Shown in pieces: positions 11,352-63,825 of a DNA stretch of 64,000 nt. Position numbers and translations under genes: made by a program. Location of the stretch: assembly GCA_017305715.1 (NCBI GenBank), contig JAFKKG010000017.1, positions 154,305 to 218,304 of the forward strand, given 5' to 3'. The stretch comes from Hyphomicrobiales bacterium (GTDB taxonomy: Bacteria > Pseudomonadota > Alphaproteobacteria > Rhizobiales > Xanthobacteraceae). Within the stretch, counting starts at the first letter, position 1. Each line of letters starts with the position of its first letter. The notes under the pieces were generated by a model. That model was given only the letters and a program-made list of their open reading frames with translations. It was not told the origin of the DNA and ran no database searches.

Positions 11352-12491
11352 ATGGCACTCGTCCTCACCGAAGAACAATCCATGCTGCGCGACAGCGCGC
11401 GCGGCCTTATCAGCGACAAGGCGCCGGTGTCGCATCTGCGCGCCTTGCGCGATGCCAGGGACGCCACGGGGTTTTCCCGCGAACTCTGGAAGGCGTTTGC
11501 CGAGATGGGCTTTTCGGGGCTGCTGGTGCCCGAAAATTTTGGCGGCAGCGCATTAGGTGCCGTCGAAGCCGGCGTGGTGATGGAGGAAATCGGCCGCACG
11601 CTGATGCCGTCGCCGTTTCTTTCGACCGCGGTGCTGGCGGCTTCCGCGCTGACGCGCGGCGGCAGCGAGGCGCAAAAGGCCGCGCATCTGCCGAAGATTT
11701 CCGACGGTTCGCTATTGGCGGCGCTTGCGATCGATGAAGGCGCAAAACATCGCCCGTTGCAGACCAAATTGCAGGCGGTGCGTTCCGGCAACGGCTTCAG
11801 GCTCAGCGGCGCAAAAGCCTTTGTGGTCGACGGCCATGTCGCCGATCTCCTGATCGTCGCGGCGCGCACGGGTGGTTCCGCCGGCGAGCGCAACGGGCTG
11901 ACGCTGTTCCTGGTCGATCCCAAGGCCAAGGGGCTGGCGGTGGAACGCACCGCGATGGTCGATTCGCACAACGCGGCGCGCATCGAATTCAGCAATGTCG
12001 AGGTCAACGCCGATCACGTGCTCGGCGAGGTCGATCAGGGCGGCGCCTTGCTCGAAGGCGTGCTCAATATCGGCCGCGGCGCGGTCGCATCCGAAATGGT
12101 CGGCCTGAGCGAGGAAGTATTCGGCCGCACCGTGACCTATCTGAAGGAGCGCAAGCAATTTGGAAAACTGATCGGCGAATTCCAGGCGCTGCAACACCGC
12201 GCGGCCGAACTCTATATCGACATCGAGATCACCCGCGCCGCCGTGCTGAAGGCGTTGCAGGCGCTGGACGGCGATTTGGACAAGGCCGGTGCCGCGGTCG
12301 CGGTTGCAAAAGCCCGGGCCGGAACCACCGCGACACGGGCGGTGCAGGAAGGCGTGCAGATGCATGGCGGCATGGGCATGACCGACCAGTTCGACATCGG
12401 CTTCTTCATGAAGCGGGCGCGGGTCTGCCAGGAACTGTTCGGCGACAGCAACTACCATGCCGACCAATTGGCGCGGATGAAGAGTTATTGA
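11352..12491 (+). CDS. Acyl-CoA dehydrogenase, subunit B of a probable pair
   Basis: 379-residue acyl-CoA dehydrogenase from the ATG at 11352 (MALVLTEEQSMLRDSARGLI). The frame is open upstream, but that part only translates the palindromic repeat. It has the family segment QMHGGMGMTDQFDIGFFMKRARVC. Where catalytic members carry the YEGT(S/N)E motif this protein reads ELFGDSNYHAD, so the usual catalytic glutamate appears to be missing. That is the pattern expected of the non-catalytic partner in a heteromeric enzyme with subunit A. Confidence 0.9.
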   Translation: MALVLTEEQSMLRDSARGLISDKAPVSHLRALRDARDATGFSRELWKAFAEMGFSGLLVPENFGGSALGAVEAGVVMEEIGRTLMPSPFLSTAVLAASALTRGGSEAQKAAHLPKISDGSLLAALAIDEGAKHRPLQTKLQAVRSGNGFRLSGAKAFVVDGHVADLLIVAARTGGSAGERNGLTLFLVDPKAKGLAVERTAMVDSHNAARIEFSNVEVNADHVLGEVDQGGALLEGVLNIGRGAVASEMVGLSEEVFGRTVTYLKERKQFGKLIGEFQALQHRAAELYIDIEITRAAVLKALQALDGDLDKAGAAVAVAKARAGTTATRAVQEGVQMHGGMGMTDQFDIGFFMKRARVCQELFGDSNYHADQLARMKSY

Positions 12492-45484: not shown

Positions 45485-45553
45485 CGTTCGCACCGGTTCC
45501 GACACGATAAACCGCCGCCGATGCAGGCGCGGACAAAATGGAGGAGGGAACAA

Positions 45554-46768
45554 ATGAAGAGTCTCAAGGTCTGCCTGGCGCTTGCCTTGTCATGTGCGGC
45601 ATCCGTGACGGCGCGTGCGGAGATATCCGACAATGTCGTGCGCGTCGGCGTACTCAACGACATCTCCGGCATCTTCCAGGACACCAATGGCATGGGGTCG
45701 GTGGAAGCCGCGCGCATGGCGGCCGAGGATTTCAACGGCGGTGGCAAGGGCATCAAGGTCGAGATCGTCTATGCCGACCACCAGAACAAGGCCGACGTGG
45801 GACAGGCGATCGCGCGCAAATGGCTCGATGTCGAGGGGGTCGACGCCATCGTCGACGTGCCGAATTCGGCGGTGGGTCTGGCCATCAATTCGCTGCTGCG
45901 GGATTCGCGCATGACGTTCCTGGCGTCGTCGACCGCAAGCTCCGACCTCACCGGCAAGGCGTGTTCGCCGAACACCATTCAGTGGGTCAACGACGCCTGG
46001 GCCACCGGCAACACCACGGCGGCGGCAATGATGGGGCGCGGCGGCAAGGACTGGTACTTCGTTACGGTCGATTATGCGCTCGGCAAGGGCATTGAGGCCG
46101 AAGCCACCAATTACATCGAGAAGCACGGCGGCAAGGTGCTGGGATCGAGCAAGCACCCGCTCGGCACGTCGGATTTTGCGTCATTCCTGCTGCAGGCGCA
46201 AAGTTCAAAGGCCAAGGTGATCGGGCTCGCCAATGCCGGCGGCGACACCATCAACGCGGTCAAGCAGGCCAACGAGTTCGGCATCCAGCAGAGCGGGCAG
46301 ACGATGGTGGCGTTCCTGCTGTTCGTCAACGACGTGCACGGCATGGGATTGAAGGTCGCCCAAGGCCTGCAATTGCTGGAAGCGTTCTACTGGGACATGG
46401 ATGACGACACCCGCGCATTTGCAAAACGCTTTGCGGCGCGGCCCGGCATGAACGGCAAGATGCCGAGCGGCAATCAGGCCGGCGTCTATGCCTCCACGCT
46501 GGCCTATCTCAATGCGGTAGCGGCGACCGGCAGCGACCACGCCAGGGATGCCGTGCCGCAGATGAAGACGTTCAAGGGCAAGGACAAATTGTTCGGCGAC
46601 GTCACCATCCGCCAGGACGGCCGGGTCATTCACCCGATGTATCTGTTCGAGGTGAAGAAGCCGGAGGAGTCGAAATATCCGTATGATTATTACAAACTGA
46701 TTTCGACGATTTCGGCCGATCAGGCGTTCCGCCCGATCGCCGACGGCGGCTGTTCGCTGGTCAAGTGA
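45554..46768 (+). CDS. Branched-chain-type ABC binding protein (aromatic acid type), copy 2
   Basis: 404-residue periplasmic binding protein. A signal peptide (LKVCLALALSCAASVTARA) is followed by VVRVGVLNDISGIFQDTNGMGSVEAARMAAEDFNG. It is a clear paralogue of the 40298 product along its length. A strong GGAGGG site precedes ATG 45554; the frame is open a little upstream. It follows the P450 gene and probably supplies its benzoate-type substrate. Again there are no adjacent permeases. Confidence 0.92.
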   Translation: MKSLKVCLALALSCAASVTARAEISDNVVRVGVLNDISGIFQDTNGMGSVEAARMAAEDFNGGGKGIKVEIVYADHQNKADVGQAIARKWLDVEGVDAIVDVPNSAVGLAINSLLRDSRMTFLASSTASSDLTGKACSPNTIQWVNDAWATGNTTAAAMMGRGGKDWYFVTVDYALGKGIEAEATNYIEKHGGKVLGSSKHPLGTSDFASFLLQAQSSKAKVIGLANAGGDTINAVKQANEFGIQQSGQTMVAFLLFVNDVHGMGLKVAQGLQLLEAFYWDMDDDTRAFAKRFAARPGMNGKMPSGNQAGVYASTLAYLNAVAATGSDHARDAVPQMKTFKGKDKLFGDVTIRQDGRVIHPMYLFEVKKPEESKYPYDYYKLISTISADQAFRPIADGGCSLVK

Positions 46769-49633: not shown

Positions 49634-50538
49634 GGTCTTCGGAAGCGAGAATGACAGAAACATCTGACGCATGGCCTGCCGGCGATATCGGCGCGCTGCT
49701 GGGCGCGCTGCGGCCAAGGCTGCATCGCTATTGCGCGCGCATGGTCGGCTCGGTGATCGACGGCGAGGACGTGCTGCAGGAGGCCTTGATCAAGGCAATG
49801 GAGGCGTTTTCCGCCGCCGCGCCGATCGGCAATCCCGAGGGCTGGCTGTTCCGGATCGCGCACAACAGCGCGCTGGATTTTCTGCGCAGGCGCCAACGGC
49901 AGCAAGCGCTGTATTCGGAACAAGAGGTGGACATGATGGCCGACCAGCTCGATGCCGTGACGAGCCGCCAGGTCGCTGCGGCCTCCCTGCGCATCTTCAT
50001 GCGCCTCAACGTGACGCAGCGCTCGAGCGTGATCCTGATGGATGTGCTCGGTTGTTCCCTGGCGGAAATCTGCGCGGTCATGGATGTGAGCCTCGCCGCC
50101 GCCAAGGCCGCGCTGGTTCGCGGCCGCGCGCGCTTGCGAAAATTTGCCGATGAGCCCGACGATGCGCCGCAACCGGCATTGTCGGACGCCGATCGCAGGC
50201 GGCTCGGCGCCTATGTCGCCCATTTCAATGCACGGGATTTCGACGCCATCCGCGCCATGATTGCCGACGACGTGCGCCTCGATCTCGTCAGCAAGACCCG
50301 CATGACCGGCAAGGCCGAAGTGTCCCGCTATTTCGGCAATTACGCCAAAGTCAGCGATTGGCATTTGGTGCCCGGCCTCGTGGAGGGGCGTCCGGCGATC
50401 CTGGTGTTCGACCCGAGCGAGCCCAGTTCAGGGCCGAAATATTTCGTGCTGCTGGCCTGGTCGGCCGGCAAGGTCGCGACCATCAGGGATTTCCGCTACG
50501 CGCCTTACATCATCGAAGGTGCGGAATACCGGATCTGA
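49630..50538 (+). CDS. ECF41-like sigma factor with C-terminal SnoaL-like domain
   Basis: 302 residues. Sigma region 2 (LRPRLHRYCARMVGSVIDGEDVLQEALIKAMEAFSAA) and region 4 (LRIFMRLNVTQRSSVILMDVLGCSLAEICAVMDVSLAAAKAALVRGRARLRKF) are followed by an NTF2/SnoaL domain from about 185 (RLGAYVAHFNARDFDAIRAMIADDVRLDLVSKTRMTGKAEVSRYF). A fused SnoaL domain acts as a built-in regulator in ECF41-type factors. GTG 49630 or ATG 49651 could be the start. No anti-sigma gene is seen. Confidence 0.9.
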   Translation: MRSSEARMTETSDAWPAGDIGALLGALRPRLHRYCARMVGSVIDGEDVLQEALIKAMEAFSAAAPIGNPEGWLFRIAHNSALDFLRRRQRQQALYSEQEVDMMADQLDAVTSRQVAAASLRIFMRLNVTQRSSVILMDVLGCSLAEICAVMDVSLAAAKAALVRGRARLRKFADEPDDAPQPALSDADRRRLGAYVAHFNARDFDAIRAMIADDVRLDLVSKTRMTGKAEVSRYFGNYAKVSDWHLVPGLVEGRPAILVFDPSEPSSGPKYFVLLAWSAGKVATIRDFRYAPYIIEGAEYRI

Positions 50539-50599
50539 GCCATCGGGCCGACCGGGCGGCAATGCGGTCTTCCGGGATTCGCTGCAATGCGGATCATAC

Positions 50600-51538
50600 C
50601 TATGTGGCCGCGGCTTTCACCAGGCAGTCCGACAAGCGCTGCGCGGCAGGCGAGAGACTACGGCCGCGAAGATGCGCCATCACGAACGCGCCCGGAGCCG
50701 CCTGCGGCGGAACGTTGAGGATGCGAAGCGCGCCGAGCTTGTAGAAATATTCCGCGACATCGGCTGAAAGCAGCCAGATCAGGTCGGAGCCATTCATCAA
50801 TGCGACATTGGTCTGGATCGAGGACGATTCCACCAGGCACCGTTCGGGCCGGCACCGCTGCTTTCGGAACAGCGCCTCCGCGGCGCTGCGCATCGCGGTG
50901 CCGTTTTCCGGCAGGATCCAGGGATACGCCATCAGGTCGTTCCAGCGCGTCGCGCGTTTTTTGGTCAAGGGATGATCGGGTCCGCAGACCGCCCTGACGG
51001 CGGGCCGGTACAGCTCCCGCGTGACGATGTCGGCGTTCTGGATCTGGCTGGAGAAGCGCCCGACCAGGATGTCGATGTGGCCCGTGTGCAATCTGGTGAG
51101 AAGTTCGTCCATCGGCCCTTCGCGGACGGTGACGTTGATGCGCGGCGCTTCCGTCAAGAGCAGGCCCAGGGCGCGCGGCACAATGACGTAGCAGGAGCTC
51201 ACCCCCGCGCCGATGCTGGCCGCGCCAATCAAGCCGCCGTCGATCGCCTCGAGTTCCTGTTGCGTGCGGTCGATATCGGCAATCAGTCCCGCGGCCCTGC
51301 GGACCAGGGTCCGTCCTGCGGCTGTCGGCTTCAAGGTCCGCCCGACGCGTTCGAACAGGCCGATGTCGAGATCGGAGGCCAGGGTCCGCAGCAGGCGCGA
51401 CGCCGCCGGTTGCGTCAGATTCACCTCGCGGGCGGCGGCGCTCAGCGTCTCCGTCCGTTCCATCGCGGCGAGCAGTTCGAGTTGCGAGGGACGAAGGCGG
51501 CTGAGCAGCCGGGTCTTCCGCTTGCGGGGGCTTTTCAT
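50600..51538 (-). CDS. LysR-family regulator
   Basis: 312-residue LysR regulator. The N-terminal helix-turn-helix is LRPSQLELLAAMERTETLSAAAREVNLTQPAASRLLRTLASDLDIGLFERVGRTLKPTAAG. The C-terminal effector domain has GPMDELLTRLHTGHIDILVGR. It is divergent from the glutamine-synthetase-like gene with a 24-bp dyad between them. It is the likely activator of the ligase/oxygenase operon in response to an aromatic inducer. It is close to the GbpR/PcaQ-type aromatic regulators in general layout. Confidence 0.93.
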   Translation of the reverse strand: MKSPRKRKTRLLSRLRPSQLELLAAMERTETLSAAAREVNLTQPAASRLLRTLASDLDIGLFERVGRTLKPTAAGRTLVRRAAGLIADIDRTQQELEAIDGGLIGAASIGAGVSSCYVIVPRALGLLLTEAPRINVTVREGPMDELLTRLHTGHIDILVGRFSSQIQNADIVTRELYRPAVRAVCGPDHPLTKKRATRWNDLMAYPWILPENGTAMRSAAEALFRKQRCRPERCLVESSSIQTNVALMNGSDLIWLLSADVAEYFYKLGALRILNVPPQAAPGAFVMAHLRGRSLSPAAQRLSDCLVKAAAT

Positions 51539-51540
51539 CG

Positions 51541-51564
51541 ATACATTCCAGAATTGGTATGTAT
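51541..51564. promoter_or_regulatory. 24-bp dyad in the LysR / GS-like intergenic region
   Basis: ATACATTCCA - GAAT - TGGTATGTAT: 9 of 10 positions in each arm mirror. It begins 2 bp from the LysR start and about 90 bp from the GS-like start, the usual location of a LysR recognition site that controls both genes. Confidence 0.65.
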
Positions 51565-51655
51565 TGGCGTCAACAATTCATTGGATATGATAGCTCAAAA
51601 ACCACAGCATTGGGCAAGGCGCATCCCGCGGACAGAAAGCTGCCTCAAGAGACCC

Positions 51656-53149
51656 ATGACCCAATCGGCTGGATTCATCGAAAAGCACGGGCTCTGGTCC
51701 GACGATCAGCGCCACCAGGCCGGAGAGATTGCCGCGCGGCTCGAACGCGAAGATATCCGGCTGGTGCGGCTTGCCTGGAGCGATCCCCACGGCGCGTCGC
51801 GCGCCAAAATGGTGACGGCGCAGGCGTTCCTGTCGGCTCTCAAGGGCGGTTACAATATCAACGTCGCCACCGCGATGCTGGACGCCTCGGGTGCCCGCGT
51901 CTTCTCGTCGTTCACGCGTGGCGGCGGCCTCGGGCTGGAGGAAATGACCGGGTCGCCCAATCTTATCGTGGTGCCGGATCCCGCGACGTTTCGCGTGTTG
52001 CCATGGGAGCCCGATGTCGGCTGGGTCCTGTGCGACGATTATTTCAGTTCCGGCCGGCCGTTTCACTTCTCGCCGCGCCATTTGCTTCGCAAGCAGCTCG
52101 CGCGGCTGCAGCAGCGATCGATGCGCTGCGTCGTCGGCCTCGAAGTCGAATGGTATCTGCTTCGGCTGTCCGAGGAGCATCTGACGGACGAGCATATCGG
52201 CGCGCCCGGGATCAAGGGGCGGGCGGTGCGGGCCCATCCGCCCGAGCCCGGATACTCGTTCCATTCCGAGACCAATCTCGACCGGATGCACGGTCCGCTC
52301 TCCGCCTTGGCGCGCGCGTTCGCGAAGCTGGACCTGCCGGTCAGGTCGTTCGAAAACGAGTGGGGCCCGGGTCAGGTCGAATGCACCTTCGCGCCCGCCG
52401 AGGCGCTGCAGGCCGCCGACAACATGGTGCTGTTTCGAAGCGCGACACGGCAATTGTGCCGCCGGATGGGTTATCTCGCGAGCTTCATGTGCCGCCCGAA
52501 ACTGAAGGGGCTTTATCCGAGCGGCTGGCATCTCCACCAGTCGCTCGTCGACGTCGGTAATGGCAGCAACCTGTTTGCGCCGCAGTCGGCCGATGCGTGT
52601 CTGTCGCCGGTCGGCAGGGCCTATGTCGGCGGCGTGTTGCACCACGGGCTTGCCGCGACCATCTTCGCCAATCCGACCGTCAATGCCTATCGCCGGTTTC
52701 GTGCCAATTCGCTGGCGCCGGATCGGCTGGCGTGGGGCACGGACCATCGCGGCGTGATGCTTCGCGTGCTCGGCGAGGTCGGGGACCCCGCCAGCCGCAT
52801 CGAGAACCGGATCGGTGAGCCGGCCGCCAATCCCTACCTCTATATCGCCTCCCAGATCATTACCGGCCTCGACGGAATCGATTGTGCCCGCGATCCCGGC
52901 CCACCGGACACCGATCCCTACAACGCGGAACGGGCCAAGCTGCCGAAGAGTCTGCTCGCCGCGCTCCATGCGCTCGAGGGCGAGCCGCTGTTTCGTCGCG
53001 AAATGGGCGACCTCTTCGTCGACTATTATCTGGCGTTCAAGCGCGTCGAAGCGGGGCGCTTCATGGAATTCGCCAGGCAAAACGATCTCGATCCGTCGAG
53101 CGACGAAATCACGGATTGGGAACAGAACGAATATTTCGATTTCTTCTGA
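51656..53149 (+). CDS. Glutamine-synthetase-like ligase (gamma-glutamyl-amide synthetase type)
   Basis: 497-residue GS-superfamily enzyme. It has GLEVEWYLLRLSEE and SFENEWGPGQVECTF (metal-binding glutamates), GWHLHQSL and NAYRRFRANSLAPDRLAWGTDHRGVMLRVLG (ATP and metal region), and SRIENRIGEPAANPYLYIA. It is not a housekeeping GlnA: the adenylylation tyrosine region is not recognised and it sits beside a Rieske oxygenase. In aniline catabolism (TdnQ, AtdA1) such an enzyme glutamylates the amine before dioxygenation. A similar role is inferred. Confidence 0.88.
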   Translation: MTQSAGFIEKHGLWSDDQRHQAGEIAARLEREDIRLVRLAWSDPHGASRAKMVTAQAFLSALKGGYNINVATAMLDASGARVFSSFTRGGGLGLEEMTGSPNLIVVPDPATFRVLPWEPDVGWVLCDDYFSSGRPFHFSPRHLLRKQLARLQQRSMRCVVGLEVEWYLLRLSEEHLTDEHIGAPGIKGRAVRAHPPEPGYSFHSETNLDRMHGPLSALARAFAKLDLPVRSFENEWGPGQVECTFAPAEALQAADNMVLFRSATRQLCRRMGYLASFMCRPKLKGLYPSGWHLHQSLVDVGNGSNLFAPQSADACLSPVGRAYVGGVLHHGLAATIFANPTVNAYRRFRANSLAPDRLAWGTDHRGVMLRVLGEVGDPASRIENRIGEPAANPYLYIASQIITGLDGIDCARDPGPPDTDPYNAERAKLPKSLLAALHALEGEPLFRREMGDLFVDYYLAFKRVEAGRFMEFARQNDLDPSSDEITDWEQNEYFDFF

Positions 53150-53185
53150 CGCGCCGGACCGTCAGCCGGGCGCCGAATTGAGAGC

Positions 53186-54577
53186 ATGAGCATGACACAG
53201 ATGGAACGCGTGGAGGCCTTGCGGCCGCGCAATTTCGGCGCATCGTATGACTGGGACGAATTGGTCCAGGAAGACCGCGTCCATCATCTGCTGTACACGG
53301 ATGCTGCGATCTTCGACGCCGAGATGCGACATATCTTTGGCGGCACGTGGGTCTATCTGGCGCATGAAAGTCAGATTCCCAATGTTGACGACTACGTCAC
53401 CGCCAAGCTCGGCCTGCGTCCGTTGATCATGACGCGCGACAGCGACGGGATCATCCGTGCGCTCTACAACCGCTGCACGCATCGCGGGACCACCCTGTGC
53501 CGCTTCGAGAAAGGCAACAAGCGGTCGTTCCAATGCCCCTATCACGGCTGGAATTTCCTCAACAATGGCAAGCTGCGCGGTGTGCCGTGGGCCGAGGGCT
53601 ATGGTGAAAACCTGACCCGGGATCCGAAGTTCAACCTCGCGCAGGTGCCGCGCGTGGAATCCTATCGCGGCTTCATCTTCGGAACACTGAACGCGTCGGC
53701 GCCGCCGATAGGCGAACATCTCGGTCCGATCAGAAAGCCGATCGACGAATGGCTGGACCGCAATCCGGGCGGCAAGGTCGTGGTCTGCGAGGCCAACCGG
53801 ATCAAATACAAGGGTAACTGGAAACTCGCCTACGACAATTCGGGTGACGGCTACCACGTGCTGTACTCGCACCGCTCGCTGCTGGAGACCGAAAACCGCT
53901 TCGTCGACGAGAATACCGAAAAGGGCATGTCTTACTACAGGACGGCGCCCGACGAGCAGCCGATGTACATGCAGTACATGGGCAACGGCCACCACTTCAA
54001 GGACAAACGGCCCAACCTGCAGCCGCGCAATGGCGGCCTGTGGGCGATCGAGTCGCTGCATCCCGGGATGGAACATGTCGAGCAAAAGCTGCGGAGGCAA
54101 TTCGGTGACCGCGCCGACGCGCTGCTCGATCTTGCCGGCTCGGAGCCGGTCAACATCAACGTGTTTCCGAACCTGTCGTTGCTCGGAAACCACATTCAGG
54201 TGTTTCAGCCGGTGTCGTTCGAGGAAACCGATACGATCTGGTACGGCACCAGGATCGAGGACGTCGATGGCACGATCGGCGCGGACGCGCTGAACGACAT
54301 CAACACCCTGCGGATGCGGACCCAGGAAGGGTTTCCGAACTTCGGGGAAGTCGATGACGTCACCAATTTCGAGCAGATCCAGCGCGGCCTGCGCTGCCAG
54401 GAGGACGAGTGGATCTACATGAATCGGGGTCTCGGCATTCCCGGGCGCATTCACACCCTGGAGGACGGCACGATCAAGGCGCCGGCGACGGATGAAATGT
54501 TCATGCGGGAATACATCAAGGAATGGAAGCGCCTCATGAAGGCCGAACCCCAGCTGACCATTCGGCGGGAGCCCTGA
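53186..54577 (+). CDS. Rieske ring-hydroxylating oxygenase, alpha subunit
   Basis: 463-residue large subunit. The Rieske centre is CTH...CPYH (RCTHRGTTLCRFEKGNKRSFQCPYHGW, residues about 91-117). The mononuclear iron site is DNSGDGYHVLYSH, with two histidines. It hydroxylates an aromatic ring using electrons from a reductase. No reductase or ferredoxin gene is found nearby. It lies 36 bp after the GS-like gene and 2 bp before the beta subunit. Confidence 0.94.
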   Translation: MSMTQMERVEALRPRNFGASYDWDELVQEDRVHHLLYTDAAIFDAEMRHIFGGTWVYLAHESQIPNVDDYVTAKLGLRPLIMTRDSDGIIRALYNRCTHRGTTLCRFEKGNKRSFQCPYHGWNFLNNGKLRGVPWAEGYGENLTRDPKFNLAQVPRVESYRGFIFGTLNASAPPIGEHLGPIRKPIDEWLDRNPGGKVVVCEANRIKYKGNWKLAYDNSGDGYHVLYSHRSLLETENRFVDENTEKGMSYYRTAPDEQPMYMQYMGNGHHFKDKRPNLQPRNGGLWAIESLHPGMEHVEQKLRRQFGDRADALLDLAGSEPVNINVFPNLSLLGNHIQVFQPVSFEETDTIWYGTRIEDVDGTIGADALNDINTLRMRTQEGFPNFGEVDDVTNFEQIQRGLRCQEDEWIYMNRGLGIPGRIHTLEDGTIKAPATDEMFMREYIKEWKRLMKAEPQLTIRREP

Positions 54578-54579
54578 TC

Positions 54580-55170
54580 ATGGCACAGCCCGTTCACGAT
54601 CCATCGCGCCATTCCTATTATGTCGGTGACGCGCTTTACCAGGAACTGATCGCCGATTTTGAGGTCGTGCGACGGGACGACCCGACGGTCCAGGACCTCG
54701 TGGAGCGTGACATGTTTCGCGGCCTCGTCGAGCGCGAAGCCCGGCTGCTCGACCGGCTTCAGTTCAAGGAATGGCTGCAACTCTATGCGGACGAATGCCT
54801 GTACTGGGTGCCGAGCACGCCCAATGGCGGCGATCCGCGGCGCGAGATCGCCGTCATGTTCGACGACCGTCGGAGGCTGGAGGATCGGGTGTTCCGGCTC
54901 GCGACCGGTTTCGCATGGTCGCAGGCCCCGTCGTCGCGGACCGTGCGGATGGTCTCGAATGTCGAGGTGTTCGCGTCCGAGAATCCCGATCAGCGCCTGG
55001 TGCGCTCGAATTTCCTGATCCACGAATTCTGGGACGACGAAACCCGGGCGCTGGCGGGTTGGGCGGGGCACCGGTTTCGAAAGTTCGATGGCGTTTGGCG
55101 GATATCCGCCAAGCAGGTGAATTTGCTGGTATGCGACCAGTGCATCCGCAACCCCAGCATCATTCTGTAG
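54580..55170 (+). CDS. Rieske ring-hydroxylating oxygenase, beta subunit
   Basis: 196-residue small subunit with the SnoaL-like fold typical of dioxygenase beta chains (EREARLLDRLQFKEWLQLYADECLYWVPSTP; SRTVRMVSNVEV; WRISAKQVNLLVCDQ). It gives the alpha-3-beta-3 hexamer structure and some substrate specificity. ATG 54580 follows the alpha stop by 2 bp. Anthranilate/benzoate- and aniline-type dioxygenases share this arrangement. Confidence 0.93.
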   Translation: MAQPVHDPSRHSYYVGDALYQELIADFEVVRRDDPTVQDLVERDMFRGLVEREARLLDRLQFKEWLQLYADECLYWVPSTPNGGDPRREIAVMFDDRRRLEDRVFRLATGFAWSQAPSSRTVRMVSNVEVFASENPDQRLVRSNFLIHEFWDDETRALAGWAGHRFRKFDGVWRISAKQVNLLVCDQCIRNPSIIL

Positions 55171-55284
55171 CGCCGCTTCGTGGGTTTGACATCGCTAGCG
55201 GCTCCCCGATCGAGAATCCACGCGGGGCGTGAGGGTGCGGAATATCTGGTTCGCAAGGCCGGCGATCGCAAAGGCCGACGATCA

Positions 55285-56010
55285 CTACTTGGGTGTTGGC
55301 CACTCGATCGAAGCCTCGATGATCTCGGCCGTCTTCCGGTAATGATCGGCCAGAAGACGGACCGCGTCATCGCTTCGCCGCAGCGTGGCGTCCATGATCG
55401 CGCGGTGTTCGGCCGCGGCGTCGCGCCGCCGCTTCCCCAATGTTCCGCCGAAATAGTTCGGCAGCCGGTAGCGCTGCGTTTCGACGTAAAGCTGATCCGC
55501 AAGTTCGAGCAGCCGCGGCGAATTGCAATGTGCGATCAGGGCCTGATGGAAATGATGATGCCGCTCCTCCATCGCGAACAGATCGGCCGCTTCCACCGTG
55601 CCCGCAACGCGCTGCCGTTCGACCTGCAGGTTGAGCGCGTGGAAAGCTGCAACAATGCCCGCTTCCCAGTCGTCGTCGCCATTGCGCATGGACCTGCGCA
55701 AAGCCTCGCTCTCGATGAGAATGCGGGTTTCGGTGGCGTCCTCGATCTCCGAGCGCGACAAGGGAGCGACCGAGAAGCCGCGCAGCGCCGTCGAACTCAC
55801 CAGCCGCTCCGATTGCAGCCGCATCAGCGCTTCGCGAAGCGGCGAAAAGCTCAACCCGTAGCGCTGCCGCAGCGCTTCGAGACGCAACGGCTCTCCCGCC
55901 TTGAACGTGCCGACGACGATATCGGCACGCAGGCGCTGATAGGCCGACTCGCCCAATGTTACGGGCTCGCCTTCGCTGGCGTTCCGGCGGTCTCCTGCCG
56001 CGCCTGCCAT
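55285..56010 (-). CDS. GntR-family regulator (FCD subfamily)
   Basis: 241 residues from ATG 56010 (MAGAAGDRRNASEGEPVTLG); the frame is open to 56094. The winged helix is ESAYQRLRADIVVGTFKAGEPLRLEALRQRYGLSFSPLREALMRLQSERLVSSTALRGFSV. The FCD domain has metal-ligand segments EERHHHFHQALIAHC. It is divergent from the gentisate-dioxygenase-like gene, with a CCTATTTTATAGG dyad between them. It probably represses the ring-cleavage unit until a pathway intermediate binds. Confidence 0.92.
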   Translation of the reverse strand: MAGAAGDRRNASEGEPVTLGESAYQRLRADIVVGTFKAGEPLRLEALRQRYGLSFSPLREALMRLQSERLVSSTALRGFSVAPLSRSEIEDATETRILIESEALRRSMRNGDDDWEAGIVAAFHALNLQVERQRVAGTVEAADLFAMEERHHHFHQALIAHCNSPRLLELADQLYVETQRYRLPNYFGGTLGKRRRDAAAEHRAIMDATLRRSDDAVRLLADHYRKTAEIIEASIEWPTPK

Positions 56011-56094
56011 GCTTCTTTGACCTTTCACGTCGCCATTGTGCGATTCGACAGCTCGACGTATTTTCGAAAATTTGCTCTTGCAACCAACATACAA

Positions 56095-56107
56095 CCTATT
56101 TTATAGG
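56095..56107. promoter_or_regulatory. CCTATTTTATAGG dyad upstream of the ring-cleavage gene
   Basis: Arms CCTA / TAGG around TTTTA, flanked by ACAA and TTGG and preceded at 56061 by the palindrome TTTTCGAAAA. It lies 24 bp upstream of the gentisate-dioxygenase-like start and is suited to overlap its promoter. Candidate GntR operator, inferred. Confidence 0.45.
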
Positions 56108-56130
56108 ATTGGCAACCCTAGGAGAGCGAA

Positions 56131-57258
56131 ATGGCAACAGGACGCCGGGAAAACCATCGCGAAGAAATCGCGGGCCGCGCCAACGTCGAGGACACGCCGG
56201 AACTGCTTGCCTATTACGACGAGCTGGAAAATCTCGACGCCGGTGCGCTGTGGACGGTCGCCAACAAGATCGAGCCGTGGCAGCCGAAATCCTCCTCCGT
56301 TCCCGTGCTCTGGCGTTACGAGGATCTGCGCAAGCACGTGTTGCGATCGGTCGAGCTGGTGTCGCCCGAAAAGGCCGGCCGCCGCGTCATCTATCTGAAC
56401 AATCCCGGCCGCCGCGATCACGCCGCCGCCGTCGGCTGGCTCTATTCCGGGCTGCAGGTGATGCACCCGGGCGAAGTGGCTTCCGCCCATGCGCATTCGG
56501 CCTCCGCGCTGCGCTTCATCATGGAAGGCGAGGGCGCCTACACCATCGTCGACGGCCACAAGCTCACGCTCGGCGCCAACGATTTTGTTCTCACGCCGAA
56601 CGGCACGTGGCACGAACATGGCGTCTCCAGCGACGGCACGCCCTGCATCTGGCAGGACGGCCTCGACATTCCCTTGGTGAATACGCTCGAGGCCAATTTC
56701 TACGCAGTGCATCCGAAGATGCAGCAGGAGGTCGGCTATCCCGTCGACGACATGACCCATGCCTGGGGCAATCCGGGCCTGCGGCCCGCCGGCGCCGAAT
56801 GGTCGCGCGGATATTCACCGCTGCTGAAATACGAGTGGGGCCCGACCTACGAGGCGTTGCAGCGCTACGGTAAGGCGGCCGAGGGCTCGCCGTTTGACGG
56901 CGTGCTCATGAACTACGTCAATCCGGTCACCGGCGGCGCTGTCATGCAGACGATCGGCGCTTCGATGCAGATGCTGCGTGCGGGCGAAGCCACCAAGGCG
57001 CATCGTCATACCGGAAGCTTCATCTACCAGGTGGCGAAGGGAAGCGGCCACTCGATCATCGACGGCAAGCGCTTCGACTGGAAGGAGCGCGATATCTTCT
57101 GCGTGCCGTCCTGGGCCTGGCATGAGCACGTCAATGCATCCGCCAGCGACGATGCCTGCCTGTTCACCTTCAACGACCTGCCGGTCATGCACGCCCTCGG
57201 CCTCTATCGCGAGGAAGCCTATGGCGACAATCAGGGCCGGCAACCGCTGGCGTCTTAA
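56131..57258 (+). CDS. Gentisate 1,2-dioxygenase-like bicupin
   Basis: 375-residue ring-cleaving enzyme with two cupin domains. The first cupin has HAHSASALRFIMEGEGAYTIVDG (HxH metal motif) and HEHG. The second has HRHTGSFIYQVAKGSGHSIIDG and HEHV. It opens gentisate, or 5-substituted salicylates, between C1 and C2. Relatives act on gentisate, salicylate, 1-hydroxy-2-naphthoate or 5-amino/5-nitrosalicylate, so the substrate is not certain from sequence. Its product is the expected substrate of the downstream hydrolase. Confidence 0.92.
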   Translation: MATGRRENHREEIAGRANVEDTPELLAYYDELENLDAGALWTVANKIEPWQPKSSSVPVLWRYEDLRKHVLRSVELVSPEKAGRRVIYLNNPGRRDHAAAVGWLYSGLQVMHPGEVASAHAHSASALRFIMEGEGAYTIVDGHKLTLGANDFVLTPNGTWHEHGVSSDGTPCIWQDGLDIPLVNTLEANFYAVHPKMQQEVGYPVDDMTHAWGNPGLRPAGAEWSRGYSPLLKYEWGPTYEALQRYGKAAEGSPFDGVLMNYVNPVTGGAVMQTIGASMQMLRAGEATKAHRHTGSFIYQVAKGSGHSIIDGKRFDWKERDIFCVPSWAWHEHVNASASDDACLFTFNDLPVMHALGLYREEAYGDNQGRQPLAS

Positions 57259-57270
57259 GGAAGAAGTACC

Positions 57271-58182
57271 ATGCGTCTTGTTACCTACCGCGCCAACATC
57301 GAGGCCGCGGCCCGCCTCGGTGCCCTCGTCGATGAACTGGTCGTCGATGTCGAGCGGATCGGCGCGCATGCCGGCATCGCACTTCCCGACTCGATGCTCG
57401 ATTTGATCGATCTTGGGCCGCCGGGGACGATGGCGCTGAAGAGGATTCTGGGCGACCACGAAGGCCGTTGGCCGGTCGGCACGGCGCTGCCCTTGGCCAA
57501 TGTCAGGCTGCTGGCGCCGATCCCGCGGCCGCGCAAGAACATTTTCGGGATCGGGCTGAACTATGTCGAGCACGTCGCGGAATCCTCGCGCGCGCTGGAT
57601 ACGGCGAAGGAATTGCCGAAACAGCCGATCATCTTCTCAAAACCTCCGACCAGCGTGATCGGGCCCGACGATGCCATCGAGCATAACCGGACCATCACCC
57701 AGCAGCTCGACTGGGAAGTCGAACTTGCCGTCGTGATGGGGCGAACGGCGCGCCGGGTCACGGAAGCGCAGGCGCTCGATTTCGTTTTCGGCTACAGCGT
57801 GATGATCGATGTCAGCGCGCGCGACAACCGCCGCGCCGGGCAGTGGATCTATTCCAAGGGCCAGGACACCTACGCGCCGTTCGGGCCGTGCATCGTGACG
57901 GCAGACGAGATCGGCGATCCGCACGCGCTCGACCTCTGGCTCACGGTGAACGGCGTCGAGAAGCAGCGCTCCAACACGCGCCACATGCTGTTCAAGGTGC
58001 CGCTGCTGATTGCGGATATTTCGGCCGCGATCACGCTCGAGCCGGGCGACATCATCGCAACCGGCACGCCTGACGGCGTTGGCGCCGGGCGGACGCCGCA
58101 GGAGTGGCTGTGGCCCGGCGATGTCGTCGAGGCAGAGGTGGCGGGCATCGGCCGGCTGCGTCATCCGGTCGTCGCGGTCTGA
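57271..58182 (+). CDS. Fumarylacetoacetate hydrolase family enzyme (maleyl/fumarylpyruvate hydrolase-like)
   Basis: 303-residue FAH-fold hydrolase. The metal site is in the QLDWEVELAVVMGRTAR segment (ExE) and the later DVSARDNRRAGQWIYSKGQDTYAPFGPCI. GDIIATGTPDGVGAGRTPQEWLWPGDVVEAEVAGIG is the family C-terminal signature. In gentisate pathways this family splits maleyl- or fumarylpyruvate. It follows the dioxygenase by 12 bp. No glutathione-dependent maleylpyruvate isomerase is present, suggesting direct maleylpyruvate hydrolysis. Confidence 0.92.
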   Translation: MRLVTYRANIEAAARLGALVDELVVDVERIGAHAGIALPDSMLDLIDLGPPGTMALKRILGDHEGRWPVGTALPLANVRLLAPIPRPRKNIFGIGLNYVEHVAESSRALDTAKELPKQPIIFSKPPTSVIGPDDAIEHNRTITQQLDWEVELAVVMGRTARRVTEAQALDFVFGYSVMIDVSARDNRRAGQWIYSKGQDTYAPFGPCIVTADEIGDPHALDLWLTVNGVEKQRSNTRHMLFKVPLLIADISAAITLEPGDIIATGTPDGVGAGRTPQEWLWPGDVVEAEVAGIGRLRHPVVAV

Positions 58183-58195
58183 ACGGAGCCTGCCA

Positions 58196-58849
58196 ATGCT
58201 GTTCGACATGGAGACGCTGGAAGCGCCAAACCGCTACAAGATCCTGACGGCCACGGTGACGCCACGGCCGATCGCCTGGGTGACGACGCGTTCCGAAGAC
58301 GGCATCGTCAACGCGGCGCCCTACAGCTTCTTCAACGTCCTGGGACATGAGCCGCCGACGCTGGCGATCGGGATGCTTGCCGGACCCGGCCGCTTCAAGG
58401 ATACCGCGACCAACATCCTCGCGACCGGGGAGTTCGTGGTGAATCTGGTATCCGAAGCGAACGCCGCGGCGATGAATGTCACCTGCATCGATGCGCCTGC
58501 CGATGTCGACGAACTCGCGCTGGCGGGCCTCACCGCGGCGCCATCCCATGCGGTACGGCCGCCGCGCATCGCCGAGTCCCCGGTGTCGTTCGAGTGCCGG
58601 GTGCTGAGTTCGATGGTGACCGGTCCGCGTCAGACGGCGGTGATCGGCCGTATCCTGTGCGCCCATGTCGCCGACGCCATGGTCCAGGACAAGGAGCGCT
58701 GCCATATCGACACGCCCGCCTTGCGCCTGATCGGCCGCATGCATGGCAGCGGCTGGTACGCCCGCTGCACCGACCTGTTCCAGCTCGACCGGCCCATTTG
58801 GGCGGAGCGGCAGCGCGATGAAGCGTTGCGGCGGGATCGGGCGTCATGA
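58196..58849 (+). CDS. Flavin reductase-like (FMN-binding split-barrel) protein
   Basis: 217-residue FMN-binding split barrel (ILTATVTPRPIAWVTTRSEDGIVNAAPYSFFNVLGHEPPTLAIGMLAGPGRFKDTATNILATGEFVVNLV). Members reduce flavin for monooxygenases or bind FMN as electron carriers. GGAG precedes ATG 58196. It is placed last in the ring-cleavage operon. It might supply electrons to the Rieske oxygenase, which lacks a dedicated reductase, but that is speculative. Confidence 0.88.
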   Translation: MLFDMETLEAPNRYKILTATVTPRPIAWVTTRSEDGIVNAAPYSFFNVLGHEPPTLAIGMLAGPGRFKDTATNILATGEFVVNLVSEANAAAMNVTCIDAPADVDELALAGLTAAPSHAVRPPRIAESPVSFECRVLSSMVTGPRQTAVIGRILCAHVADAMVQDKERCHIDTPALRLIGRMHGSGWYARCTDLFQLDRPIWAERQRDEALRRDRAS

Positions 58850-58899
58850 GGGCAACAGCGGCACTTTGCAGCGGCGCGGGCCTCGCCCCTGCGACATTT

Positions 58900-58913
58900 G
58901 TTGCCTTGGCAAC
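58900..58913. promoter_or_regulatory. 14-bp palindrome GTTGCCTTGGCAAC (copy 2)
   Basis: Arms GTTGCC / GGCAAC around TT; the reverse complement of the copy at 43388-43401. It lies upstream of the aromatic-cluster binding-protein gene. Possible target of one of the MarR-type regulators in the window. Confidence 0.5.
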
Positions 58914-58915
58914 CG

Positions 58916-58927
58916 GAACTATAGTTC
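58916..58927. promoter_or_regulatory. 12-bp perfect palindrome GAACTATAGTTC
   Basis: Fully symmetric 12-mer, its centre 15 bp from that of the neighbouring GTTGCCTTGGCAAC dyad, placing the two sites on nearly opposite faces of the helix. Possible second operator or promoter-linked site; function unknown. Confidence 0.4.
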
Positions 58928-59135
58928 TTGCCATTCGCGGCGTCGGCGAATTATGGTGCAGGCCGCCGGGGTATGGGCCGAAGGTTCTAATCGGGTTTTT
59001 CGGTTCGTGCTTGCCGCCCAAGGGGAAATTCGCGCACAAAATATCTCCGGGCATCACGGGATTTGACGAAGGCGCGAGCCTCGAACGGCGGCCGGCTCCG
59101 GTCGGCGGGATAATCAGATAATGAGGGGAGAAAAT

Positions 59136-60308
59136 ATGAAAAAAGCATTCTGGCTGGCGGGCGCAATGGCTATGGCGCTGGCACAGCCCGCATCCGCAGG
59201 CGACACCATCAAGATCGGGTTCGTCTCGACCTTCAGCGGTCCGACCGCTGTCATCGGCAACGACATGCGCAACGCGTTCGAACTGGCGCTCGACCATCTG
59301 GGCCGCAAGATGGGCGGCAAGCCGGTCGAGGTGATTTACGAAGATGACGGCCAGAAGCCGGATGTCGGCAAGCAGAAGACCGAAAAGCTGATCCAGTCCG
59401 ACAAGGTCGATTTCATCGCCGGCTATATCTGGTCCAACGTGCTGCTCGCCTCGCTGAAGACCGCGGTCGATGCGAAGACCTTCCTGATCTCGGCCAATGC
59501 CGGTCCGTCGCAGCTCGCCGGCGAGTTGTGCTCGCCTTACGTGTTCTCGACCTCCTGGCAGAACGACCAGACGCCGCAGGCGATGGGTGTCTACATGAAC
59601 CAGAAGGGCGTCAAGTCGGTGTTCCTGATCGGCCCGAACTATGCCGCCGGCAAGGACATGCTGGCCGGCCTGAAGAGCACGTTCAAGGGCGAAGTGGTCG
59701 GCGAGGAATACACCGTGTGGCCCAGCCAGCTCGACTTCTCCGCCGAACTCACCAAGGCGAAGAATTCCAAGGCCGAGTCGATCTTCGTGTTCTATCCGGG
59801 CGCTGCCGGCGTGCAGTTCCTCAACCAGTATGCGCAGGCCGGCATCAAGTCGCAGATTCCGCTCTATACGGCCTTCACGATCGACGAATTGTCGCTGCCG
59901 CTGCAGAAGGACAATGCGATCGGCATTCCCGGCGCCCAGGAATGGGTCAACGACCTGCCGAACCCCGAGAACAAGAGGTTCGTGGAGGATTACCGCAAGA
60001 AATATCCCGGCCTGCGTCCGACCTATTACGGCGCCCAATCCTATGACGCGGCGCAGTTGATCAACAGCGCTGTTGTCGCCGTGAAGGGCGATACCTCGAA
60101 GAAGGACGAGATGAAGGCCGAGATGGAGAAGGCCAACTTCAAATCGCTGCGCGGTCCGTTCAAATACGGCAAGAACCACATCCCGATCCAGAACTTCTAC
60201 CTGCAGGACGTGGTCAAGGACGCCGACGGCCAGCTCTCGCTCAAGACGGTGGCGACCATCGTCAAGGACGACCAGGATCGTTTCGCCGACAAGTGCCCGA
60301 TGAAGTGA
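59136..60308 (+). CDS. Branched-chain-type ABC binding protein of the aromatic cluster
   Basis: 390-residue periplasmic binding protein. A signal peptide (KKAFWLAGAMAMALAQPASA) is followed by GDTIKIGFVSTFSGPTAVIGNDMRNAFELALDHLGRKMGGKPVEVIYEDDGQKPD. It is more like the LivK/amide-binding group than like the two aromatic-type proteins above. It heads a full importer set (permeases and ATPases follow). Probable cargo is the aromatic amine or acid degraded by the cluster, from context. Confidence 0.92.
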   Translation: MKKAFWLAGAMAMALAQPASAGDTIKIGFVSTFSGPTAVIGNDMRNAFELALDHLGRKMGGKPVEVIYEDDGQKPDVGKQKTEKLIQSDKVDFIAGYIWSNVLLASLKTAVDAKTFLISANAGPSQLAGELCSPYVFSTSWQNDQTPQAMGVYMNQKGVKSVFLIGPNYAAGKDMLAGLKSTFKGEVVGEEYTVWPSQLDFSAELTKAKNSKAESIFVFYPGAAGVQFLNQYAQAGIKSQIPLYTAFTIDELSLPLQKDNAIGIPGAQEWVNDLPNPENKRFVEDYRKKYPGLRPTYYGAQSYDAAQLINSAVVAVKGDTSKKDEMKAEMEKANFKSLRGPFKYGKNHIPIQNFYLQDVVKDADGQLSLKTVATIVKDDQDRFADKCPMK

Positions 60309-60325
60309 TCGCGGGTTCTTTCGAC

Positions 60326-60368
60326 GCATGATCCGCCAAAACCTGAACGGCCTTGGCAAGGATCATGC
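60326..60368. repeat. Palindromic repeat, family 5 (diverged copy)
   Basis: GCATGATCC (60326-60334) and GGATCATGC (60360-60368) form a 9-bp stem with a 25-bp interior, related to the element at 32815-32859. It lies just after the binding-protein stop and before the terminator-like hairpin. Confidence 0.65.
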
Positions 60369-60385
60369 ATCCAATAAGAAAATGG

Positions 60386-60418
60386 GCGGCGGCGCAGCAC
60401 GCGCTGCCGCTGTTTTTT
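60386..60418 (+). terminator. Rho-independent terminator between the binding-protein gene and livH
   Basis: GCGGCGGCGC / GCGCTGCCGC is a 10-bp stem with one G-U pair and a five-base loop, followed after TG by six Ts (60413-60418). Incomplete termination here would give more binding protein than membrane components, a common arrangement in ABC importers. Confidence 0.75.
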
Positions 60419-60485
60419 CGCCTTGATGGGCTTAATCGCGCCAGGCGCGCGGGGTTGATGCTGTCGCCATGGAGAGGGCACTAGG

Positions 60486-61400
60486 TTGGTTCTCGTCGAA
60501 CAATCGCTGAACGGATTGCAGTTCGGCCTGCTGCTGTTCCTGCTGGCGGCGGGGCTGACGCTGGTGTTCGGCATCATGGATTTCGTCAATCTGGCGCACG
60601 GCTCGCTCTATATGATGGGCGCCTATTTCGCCGCGACGTTCACCGCCTGGACCGGAAGTTTCATCCTCGGCGTGCTGCTGGCGCTCGGCGCCACGCTGCT
60701 GCTCGGGATCGTGCTGGAATTCGTAGCGCTCAGACATCTCTACGGCCGCGACCATCTCGATCAGGTGCTGGCAACCTTCGGCCTGATCCTGTTCTTCAAC
60801 GACGCGGTGCGGCTGATCTGGGGCCCGGCCGGCCTCGCGCTGCCGCTGCCGGCATGGCTCACCGTGCCGGTCCAGATCCTCCCCGGCGTGTTCTATCCGG
60901 CCTACCGGCTGTCGATCATCGTGGTCGCGCTCGTCGTTGCCGCGCTGCTCTATCTCGTTGTGATGCGGACCCGGATCGGCATGCTGATCCGCGCCGGCGC
61001 TTCCAACCGCGAAATGATCGGCGCGCTCGGCATCAACATCAAATTGCTGTTCACGCTGGTGTTCGGGCTTGGCGCGGCGCTCGCCGGCCTCGCCGGGCTG
61101 ATGCAGGCGCCGATCCTCACGGTGCAGATCGGCATGGGCGAGAACATCCTGATTCTCGCCTTTGTCATCATCGTGATCGGTGGCATCGGCTCGATCCGCG
61201 GTGCGTTCCTGGCCGCGATCTTTGTCGGCATGATCGATACGCTCGGCCGCGCTTTCCTGCCGGACCTGTTGCGCATGGTGTTGAGTTCGGCCGCAGCCTC
61301 CACCGCCGCACCCGCTCTGTCCTCGATGCTGATCTACCTCCTGATGGCCATCGTACTGGTGGTGCGGCCAGAGGGGCTGTTTCCGGCCGCCAAGCGATGA
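60486..61400 (+). CDS. Branched-chain-type ABC permease (LivH-like)
   Basis: 304-residue permease with about eight helices, starting LVEQSLNGLQFGLLLFLLAAGLTLVFGIMDFVNLAHGSLYMMGAYFAA, the standard LivH N-terminus. The start appears to be TTG at 60486. The coupling segment ASNREMIGALGINIKLLFTLVFGLGAALAGLAG is conserved. It pairs with the LivM-like protein, whose gene overlaps by 4 bp. Confidence 0.93.
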   Translation: MVLVEQSLNGLQFGLLLFLLAAGLTLVFGIMDFVNLAHGSLYMMGAYFAATFTAWTGSFILGVLLALGATLLLGIVLEFVALRHLYGRDHLDQVLATFGLILFFNDAVRLIWGPAGLALPLPAWLTVPVQILPGVFYPAYRLSIIVVALVVAALLYLVVMRTRIGMLIRAGASNREMIGALGINIKLLFTLVFGLGAALAGLAGLMQAPILTVQIGMGENILILAFVIIVIGGIGSIRGAFLAAIFVGMIDTLGRAFLPDLLRMVLSSAAASTAAPALSSMLIYLLMAIVLVVRPEGLFPAAKR

Positions 61401-62336
61401 AATCTCACATCAATCTCCGCAACGTCGTCGTGGCGCTGGTCGCTGCCGGACTGGTATTGTTGCCGCTCTATTCGCAGCTCAGCGGCAACATCTTCATCCT
61501 GACGCTGTTCACCCGCATCATCATCTTTGCGCTCGCCGCGGCCAGCCTCAATCTCATCATGGGGTATGGCGGCATGATGAGCTTCGGCCATGCCGCCTAT
61601 CTCGGCATCGGCGGCTATGCGGTCGGCATCCTCGCGCATGAGGGCATCGGCTCCGGTTTCATCCAATGGCCGGTGGCGCTGGCGGTGTCGGCGCTCTATG
61701 CACTGGTGATCGGCGCGCTCAGCCTGCGCACCCGTGGCGTCTATTTCATCATGATCACGCTCGCCTTTGCCCAGATGGCCTATTACATCGCCTCGGGCAT
61801 GTCGCGGTACGGCGGCGACGACGGGCTGACGATCTACAAGCGCAGCACGTTCGGCGGCCTCATCGATCTGTCGAACCGCGTCCAGTTCTACTATCTCTGT
61901 CTCGCCTGCCTGTTCGGCGGCATCTACCTGATCTGGCGCATCATCAACTCACGCTTCGGCATGGTGGTGCAGGGCGTGCGCTCCAATGAGCAGCGCATGC
62001 AGGCGATCGGCTTTCACGCCAACCGCTATCGCCTGGTCTGTTTCGTGATCTCCGGCACGATCTGCGGCCTGGCCGGCGCGCTGCTGGCGAACAACACCGA
62101 CTTCGTCAGCCCTGCCGGCATGTACTGGACCCGCTCCGGCGAACTGATGGTGATGGTGGTGTTCGGCGGCATGGGCTCGCTGTTCGGTCCGGTCATCGGC
62201 GCGATCTTCTTCCTGGTGCTGGAGGAAGTGCTGTCGCAATTCACCGAATATTGGGCGCTGATCATGGGGCCGCTGTTGCTGCTGGTCGTGCTGTTCGCGC
62301 GCGGCGGCATCATGGGGCTGCTCGGGAGGTTCAGCC

Positions 62337-62344
<8 letters not shown>
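61397..62344 (+). CDS. Branched-chain-type ABC permease (LivM-like)
   Basis: 315-residue permease (ALAAASLNLIMGYGGMMSFGHAAYLGIGGYAVGIL is the LivM hallmark). The coupling region is GVRSNEQRMQAIGFHANRYRLVCFVISGTICGLAGALLA. The ATG at 61397 overlaps the livH-like stop as ATGA. It forms the second half of the membrane channel. Confidence 0.93.

Positions 62345-63825
<1,481 letters not shown>

Follow-up and report, generated by a model that had tools for sequence, protein, structure and literature searches.

The window analysed here, a stretch of 64,000 nucleotides (G000:C48:154305-218304) from the Bradyrhizobium-like genome of a soil bacterium (7.45 Mb, 51 contigs), contains a gene cluster in which, judged by sequence comparison, two modules of different origin lie side by side. 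The first is an inserted block with a LysR regulator gene, a gene for a glutamine synthetase (GS)-like ligase and the genes for the alpha and beta subunits of a Rieske oxygenase (LysR-GS-alpha-beta, module 1). The second is an older operon encoding a gentisate-dioxygenase-like bicupin, an FAH-family hydrolase and a flavin-reductase-like protein, followed by an importer (module 2). An earlier sequence-only reading had joined these genes into one pathway; its GS/oxygenase half is supported by our analysis, whereas a single pathway through the bicupin is not. The best explanation, and one that we regard as probable, is a glutamylating Rieske module for an acidic aromatic amine next to an older gentisate-type operon; the two would share the importer and would not form one linear pathway. 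In what follows, G000 is the host genome, G with another number a sampled genome, C a contig, and L a locus stretch that was examined.

The insertion is visible in the boundaries of homology. Similarity to relatives that carry the bicupin and the importer stops at 50525-50548 on the left side (four comparators reaching so far) and starts again at 55295-55326 on the right side (eight comparators); LysR-GS-alpha-beta is therefore an insertion, flanked on one side by a gene of the sigma-70 type (ECF-sigma-like) and on the other by the GntR gene of the bicupin operon. The bicupin-FAH-flavin reductase operon with its own GntR gene is found without the insert in eight comparators. Locus L004, from the Bradyrhizobium that is the closest named relative of the host genome, is collinear with the window throughout (89%), and its GS and alpha proteins are 96-99% identical to those of the window; insertion at this site is common to the window and this one near relative alone. 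The GC content of the insert is 0.629 and that of its flanks 0.634. An insertion of the whole stretch from the LysR gene to the flavin reductase gene was considered and dropped, as the comparators show LysR-GS-alpha-beta alone inserted. The gene spacing fits two operons: GS and alpha are separated by 36 bp and alpha and beta by 2 bp, followed by the convergent GntR gene, while 12 bp separate the bicupin from the FAH gene, 13 bp the FAH from the flavin reductase gene, and 286 bp precede the importer.

The closest solved relative of the GS-like ligase is NpaA1 (8wwu) with 477 bits, the next structure reaching 158 bits; NpaA1 glutamylates 1-naphthylamine and anilines. Identity is 44% to NpaA1, 48% to TdnQ, and 44-48% across the aniline (tdn/npa) proteins. 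Two trees, one with 29 and one with 35 rows, place the window GS in a seven-row clade (support 100/100); next to it are the aniline rows and, as the third group, a sad-like clade, whose members are associated with alpha-only Rieske oxygenases. The distant rows L003, L012, L014 and L015 were dropped between the two trees, and L171 is in neither. The first tree joined the window clade to the aniline rows and the Nostoc/Prescottella rows (97/97), and the second, with a different set of rows, left the order of the three clades open. IpuC, PuuA and GlnA are far from the window GS in both trees, which rule out a polyamine (PuuA) or housekeeping (GlnA) enzyme. The kinship with aniline-type ligases on which the sequence-only reading relied is thus borne out: the protein groups with aromatic-amine ligases (TdnQ, NpaA1) and not with PuuA, IpuC or GlnA. 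Among the glutamyl-organic-amine synthases (GoaS) it likewise clusters with the aromatic-amine members (NpaA1, AtdA1, TdnQ), apart from GlnA and PuuA.

The N-terminal loop (motif 15 of GoaS) aligns to NpaA1 without gaps, and the NpaA1 residues E232, E234, W235 and F86 are kept, whereas F75 and M81 are changed. The amine tunnel of NpaA1 is formed by F75, F86, W235 and M81, and position 81 is Trp in AtdA1 (PMC11335346, excerpt). The window clade has Leu75, Arg81, Phe86 and Trp235 at these positions, with Arg81 in 8/8 loci; in six aniline rows position 81 is I, M, F or V. Just five positions of the GS alignment carry a basic residue in each of the seven window-clade rows but in none of the four aniline rows compared. 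The sad-like clade has Lys75 in 13/13 rows and Arg or Lys at position 80 in 12/13.

The alpha subunit is 43-46% and the beta subunit 38-46% identical to subunits of aniline-type systems, and in the alpha tree the window alphas form a well-supported clade of their own, of aniline-dioxygenase type and outside the aniline clade. Identity of alpha to the other Bradyrhizobium alpha/beta enzyme is about 28%. A close relationship with auxin-type oxygenases was rejected: the best PDB matches, 9o71 and 7yls (the latter presumably IadD), reach 183 bits only, and the tree sets the Bradyrhizobium auxin-type alphas apart. On plasmids of Rhodococcus and Corynebacterium, relatives of the system (alpha 49-51%) stand next to a catechol 1,2-dioxygenase gene. 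By these comparisons the window GS and its alpha/beta oxygenase are a third clade of glutamylating aromatic-amine systems, whose nearest described kin are the aniline (tdn/npa) systems, and glutamylation of an amine is predicted from this kinship together with the conserved residues.

GS, alpha and beta occur together in all eight loci found with a GS at least 60% identical (the window, L004-L009 and L171). The clade is rare in our sample: by GS it is present in 2 of 195 genomes of the genus, host included, and by alpha at 70% or more in 3 of 397 genomes of the order. In four of the eight loci a gene for a protein of 325-328 aa adjoins GS-alpha-beta, after beta in L007-L009 and before GS in L171. 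The sole PDB match of this protein is the 4,5-dihydroxyphthalate decarboxylase 9jp7 (262 bits); a relative on a plasmid bears the annotation pht5. L008, L009 and L171 also carry a gene of the class II aldolase family, whose product has a weak resemblance to 3,4-dihydroxyphthalate decarboxylase (84-96 bits against a cut-off of 200), and a UbiD decarboxylase gene lies about 5 kb upstream of GS-alpha-beta in L171. The 9jp7 homologue and the UbiD gene fit a carboxylated dihydroxy product, and Arg81 together with the adjoining decarboxylase homologue suggests a carboxylated amine and a catechol-type product. That the substrate is an aminobenzoate-like amine, one of the options of the sequence-only reading, is on these two grounds a fair guess. 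In L171 (G352:C163:20000-39900, 1709-12164) the genes before GS-alpha-beta are those for the UbiD decarboxylase, an IclR regulator, an AMP-binding ligase, the class II aldolase and the dihydroxyphthalate-decarboxylase homologue; a Rid protein, 48% identical to the Rid protein of L098, is encoded after it.

Neither an amidotransferase nor a Rieske reductase is encoded among the cluster genes. The best genome-wide match to TdnT is 33% identical (41 bits) and the best match to TdnB 31% (140 bits), both unlinked, and another unlinked reductase candidate of the host genome is 43% identical to a sad-type reductase. Both absences had been pointed out before, with the conclusion that the chemistry would differ from the aniline system. 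The absences stand, but the conclusion is not compelled: the npa system cannot do without its GS, alpha, beta or reductase, whereas the amidotransferase NpaA2 is dispensable (PMC11335346, excerpt), so that a missing TdnT does not exclude aniline-system chemistry. Since the reductase is essential in npa and none is linked here, it must come from elsewhere.

Several observations weigh against the explanation given at the outset. Neither the dihydroxyphthalate-decarboxylase homologue nor the class II aldolase gene is found in the searched stretches of the window and L004-L006, and elsewhere in the host genome the former has a single best match of 28%. The reductase essential in npa is not linked to the window cluster. 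One basic residue in the tunnel carries modest weight because alpha itself has ten columns that are basic in the window clade alone. A fourth genome of the order, G544, has alpha and beta at 38-40% identity and no GS found within 20 kb; such oxygenases therefore need not have a linked ligase. GS-alpha-beta has no importer in the roughly 8 kb downstream in L005, L006 and L171.

Could module 1 then be no more than an aniline-type system that acts on neutral anilines and from which the genes for amidotransferase and reductase have been lost? GS, alpha and beta are of aniline type, and Trp235 and Phe86 of the amine tunnel are conserved. However, the proteins form their own well-supported clade in both the GS and the alpha trees, Leu75 and Arg81 replace hydrophobic or aromatic residues in 8/8 loci, and the neighbours are decarboxylase homologues and an importer of aromatic-acid type, which together make this explanation rather unlikely.

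The bicupin reaches 324.6 bits against the TIGR02272 model for gentisate 1,2-dioxygenase, below the cut-off of 442.1, and its closest solved relative is 3bu7, the gentisate 1,2-dioxygenase of Ruegeria (Silicibacter) pomeroyi (561 bits). Two other identities were considered: the match to the 5-aminosalicylate dioxygenase MabB is 276.7 bits (cut-off 650), and that to the 5-nitrosalicylate dioxygenase 8ch4 is 41 bits. We inspected 36 of the listed bicupin loci, with bicupins of about 80% identity or more. Ten of these are importer loci (those of the host genome, L004, G012, G085, G020, G003, G158, G153, G190 and G100). A sad-like GS gene, its Rieske gene and an IclR gene lie across the importer in 6/6 of the bicupin-importer loci whose far side is visible, the other four having ended first with the stretch or contig. 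Twenty-two of the 36 loci have another Rieske alpha/beta (28-29% identical) and are presumably of indole-acetate type (compare PMC12633357, excerpt); the one examined, L098, is described below. The remaining four have bicupins at 80-81% identity; the one examined, L095, encodes a nitrilase-family protein and a thioesterase. That module 2 can exist by itself is seen on a Sulfitobacter plasmid, where bicupin, FAH and flavin reductase genes are accompanied by a homologous importer (40-58%), while the stretch has no annotated GS.

Other neighbours of the bicupin offer a lead on its substrate. In L098 (G001:C118:72000-91900, 927-12087) a Rid-family gene precedes bicupin-FAH-flavin reductase, and across it lie genes for a Rieske alpha/beta, a reductase and an indolepyruvate ferredoxin oxidoreductase; with such neighbours the bicupin may act downstream of anthranilate or of the CoA ester of anthranilate. 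Plasmid loci combine bicupin-FAH with a nitrilase-family hydrolase and an Asp/Glu racemase (L128, L129) and with a salicylyl-CoA 5-hydroxylase (L125, L129), a set that would fit a route from 5-hydroxyanthranilate through maleamylpyruvate, maleamate and maleate to fumarate. As a lead, then, these neighbours (hydrolase, racemase, Rid and 5-hydroxylase) make the bicupin a candidate 5-hydroxyanthranilate dioxygenase. In L091 (8344-8766, G054) the FAH match is in two short pieces, and the gene may be broken there.

These data bear on the joined pathway, in which an aminobenzoate is glutamylated, hydroxylated by the Rieske enzyme to a gentisate- or aminosalicylate-like ring and cleaved by the bicupin, the product being split by the FAH hydrolase. 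GS-alpha-beta does adjoin the bicupin in the window and in L004; the second GS/Rieske pair beyond the importer in the visible bicupin-importer loci provides a weaker link of the same kind, and in L010 (8673-18184, from a Xanthobacteraceae metagenome-assembled genome) a sad-like Rieske-GS pair and a bicupin (36% identity) are 5.7 kb apart, with an isocitrate-lyase-like gene between them. However, the two modules have separate regulators and separate histories. Whereas the GS/oxygenase set is kept in 8/8 loci, its link to the bicupin is confined to the window and the near-identical L004: no bicupin is near the window-clade GS in the other six loci (L005-L009 and L171, stretches of 13-21 kb), the sad-like pair has none in 7/7 stretches (L047-L053; no substrate-binding protein, SBP, was found in L050), and the bicupin operon occurs without the insert in the comparators and without a GS on the Sulfitobacter plasmid. 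The chemistry points away from gentisate as well. Three described GS/Rieske systems yield catechols and not the para-dihydroxy ring of gentisate: aniline gives catechol (PMC4539516, excerpt), 1-naphthylamine gives 1,2-dihydroxynaphthalene (PMC11335346, excerpt) and 4-aminobenzenesulfonate gives 4-sulfocatechol (PMC5632844, excerpt). If an aminobenzoate were attacked at the position beside its nitrogen, the expected products would be protocatechuate, 2,3-dihydroxybenzoate or catechol, and no gentisate-type ring would arise. For these reasons the bicupin is likelier a neighbour than the next step, and we consider the joined pathway unlikely. An alpha/beta enzyme, IadDE, does work as a monooxygenase (PMC12633357, excerpt), and there is a slim chance that the Rieske enzyme acts in this way on the glutamyl amide of an imported aminobenzoate, providing an aminosalicylate- or gentisate-type ring for the adjacent bicupin and FAH hydrolase; searches of open-licence literature returned no description of an amine-to-gentisate route that starts with glutamylation. 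That module 1 has no catabolic function in this strain, for example for lack of a reductase to serve it, and owes its position to an accident of insertion would agree with the lack of linked reductase and ferredoxin genes, the need for a reductase in npa and an insertion site common to one relative alone, but is improbable given the intact motifs, the open reading frames (ORFs), the 96-99% identity of GS and alpha to L004 and the unlinked reductases of the right types (31% to TdnB, 43% to a sad-type enzyme).

The second, sad-like pair is common in Bradyrhizobium. A GS match with E below 1e-100 is present in 188 of the 195 sampled genus members, and the listed ones outside the window clade are 47-50% identical. 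Of the sad-like GS loci, the 28 with the best scores, hence no random sample, were inspected: the GS gene has an alpha-only Rieske gene next to it in 28/28, and an importer ATPase gene is at most 1.5 kb from the pair in 22/28 (22/25 of those not cut by a contig end). In the host genome the pair lies with an IclR gene in L045 (G000:C20:104000-123081, 7534-11348), near genes that resemble, by eye, those for benzoate-CoA ligase and its regulator; in many other members of the genus this set is located next to the importer. Its oxygenase is of the SadA-like, alpha-only kind, which the window oxygenase is not, and shares 81% identity, across 452 residues, with an oxygenase of Novosphingobium resinovorum SA1, a degrader of 4-aminobenzenesulfonate (sulfanilate); we infer that the latter is the SadA protein of SA1. 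The top structure match of the host protein is an unnamed Rieske protein (9ina) and the second a putative phthalate 4,5-dioxygenase (7fhr). The window reaches the end of its contig, C48, at position 64000; contig C20 ends with a methyltransferase-like gene, and since the counterpart of this gene is next to the importer in both G012 and G085, C20 probably borders on C48. In Hydrogenophaga PBC, transposon mutagenesis identified a sad operon that encodes a dioxygenase (sadA), a glutamine synthetase (sadB) and a ferredoxin (sadC) and deaminates 4-aminobenzenesulfonate, an anionic amine; the authors of the genome paper assume that in nature the operon serves for a closely similar compound (PMC5632844, excerpt).

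The solved structure closest to the SBP of the importer is 4evq (192 bits); this and similar chains bind acids of the benzoate type. Orthologs of the importer follow GS-alpha-beta in three of the six loci outside the window/L004 pair (L007-L009). The SBPs of these loci are 69-73% identical to the window SBP and 57-61% identical to the next paralog in the host genome, where the SBP has 67 matches, weak ones included.

Under the explanation that we prefer, two modules and a shared importer, the importer would bring in a probably carboxylated aromatic amine (aminobenzoate- or aminophthalate-like). The GS-like ligase would then join L-glutamate to its amino group, using ATP, and the alpha/beta oxygenase, fed in trans by an unlinked reductase, would oxidise the resulting gamma-glutamyl amide, in all likelihood at the position beside the nitrogen. 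The catechol-type product would be cleaved by other enzymes, in some relatives after decarboxylation; the host genome has a protocatechuate 3,4-dioxygenase (378 bits, cut-off 296.4). Module 2, with its GntR regulator, would take up aromatic acids and perform gentisate-type cleavage, either of gentisate itself or of an analogue with an amino group. What the sequences show directly are the genes, their families and clades, the insertion and the synteny; glutamylation, a carboxylated substrate, a catechol product and a reductase in trans are what we infer from the comparisons above.

The features of the cluster are listed in Table 1. All genes named by the sequence-only reading (GS-like, alpha, beta, GntR, bicupin, FAH, flavin reductase, importer) were recovered with clear family matches, which at the family level identifies them as genes and not chance ORFs. 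The catalytic motifs are intact by eye, with the Rieske and mononuclear-iron motifs in alpha and metal motifs in both cupin domains. The LysR regulator reaches 139.5 bits with its best NCBIfam match, PcaQ, well under the cut-off of 303.8. A 91-aa ORF between the flavin reductase gene and the importer (58846-59121) has no Pfam match and is probably not a gene. Further upstream (44237-46768) lie a cytochrome P450 gene and a gene for a second binding protein, which is 51% identical to the binding protein encoded close to the sad-like genes in Methylobacterium nodulans.

Table 1. Positions and strands of the two modules in the window, with the basis of each assignment
Feature	Position	Strand	Basis or remark
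Inserted block LysR-GS-alpha-beta, ~4.75 kb	50540..55295		Homology boundaries against comparators
LysR regulator, divergent to GS gene	50600..51538	-	Best NCBIfam model PcaQ
GS-like ligase, 497 aa, predicted gamma-glutamyl aromatic amine synthase	51656..53149	+	Gln-synt_C, 2.9e-72
Rieske oxygenase alpha subunit, aniline-dioxygenase type	53186..54577	+	Rieske and Ring_hydroxyl_A matches
Rieske oxygenase beta subunit	54580..55170	+	Ring_hydroxyl_B match
GntR/FCD regulator of bicupin operon	55285..~56010	-	Family match; start approximate, picked by eye
Gentisate-dioxygenase-like bicupin	56131..57258	+	TIGR02272 match; 3bu7 nearest solved relative
FAH-family hydrolase	57271..58182	+	1.6e-71
Flavin-reductase-like protein	58196..58849	+	8.1e-24
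HAAT-type SBP of importer	59136..60308	+	Nearest solved chain 4evq
Importer permease	60486..61400	+	SBP-permease-permease-ATPase-ATPase importer spans 59136-63825
Importer second permease	61397..62344	+	Part of importer
Importer ATPase	62337..63104	+	Part of importer
Importer second ATPase	63100..63825	+	Part of importer

Module 1 resembles the aniline and 1-naphthylamine operons (tdnQTA1A2B, atdA1-A5, npaA1-A5) in having a GS-like ligase and aniline-type alpha and beta subunits in one run, with a LysR gene beside it. It differs from them in the absence of a linked amidotransferase (TdnT/AtdA2) or reductase (TdnB/AtdA5), in Leu75 and Arg81 in the amine tunnel of a GS outside the aniline clade, in the importer nearby, and in the decarboxylase homologues near its relatives. 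With the sad system it shares the pairing of a GS-like ligase with a Rieske oxygenase and basic residues in the amine tunnel, and the sad-like pair in Bradyrhizobium adjoins the same importer; however, the window oxygenase is of an unrelated alpha/beta type (25-33% identity over short stretches), its GS belongs to another clade, and no ferredoxin or reductase gene is linked. As to 3bu7, the window bicupin has the metal motifs in both domains, but it belongs to the older neighbouring operon, scores under the gentisate model cut-off, and its function is predicted.

Glutamylation before ring oxidation is known for anilines and naphthylamines, and sadB is part of an operon that deaminates 4-aminobenzenesulfonate. 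The present locus brings in a third lineage, whose oxygenase is of aniline type, whereas the pocket of its ligase and the neighbouring genes point to a carboxylated amine. Across the Bradyrhizobium loci examined, a sad-like GS/Rieske pair lies beside an importer of aromatic-acid type, and at this locus two unrelated oxygenases, each with its own ligase, now appear to flank one importer. The locus thereby offers a candidate answer to the question of the natural substrate of sad-type systems, which may be aminobenzoates.

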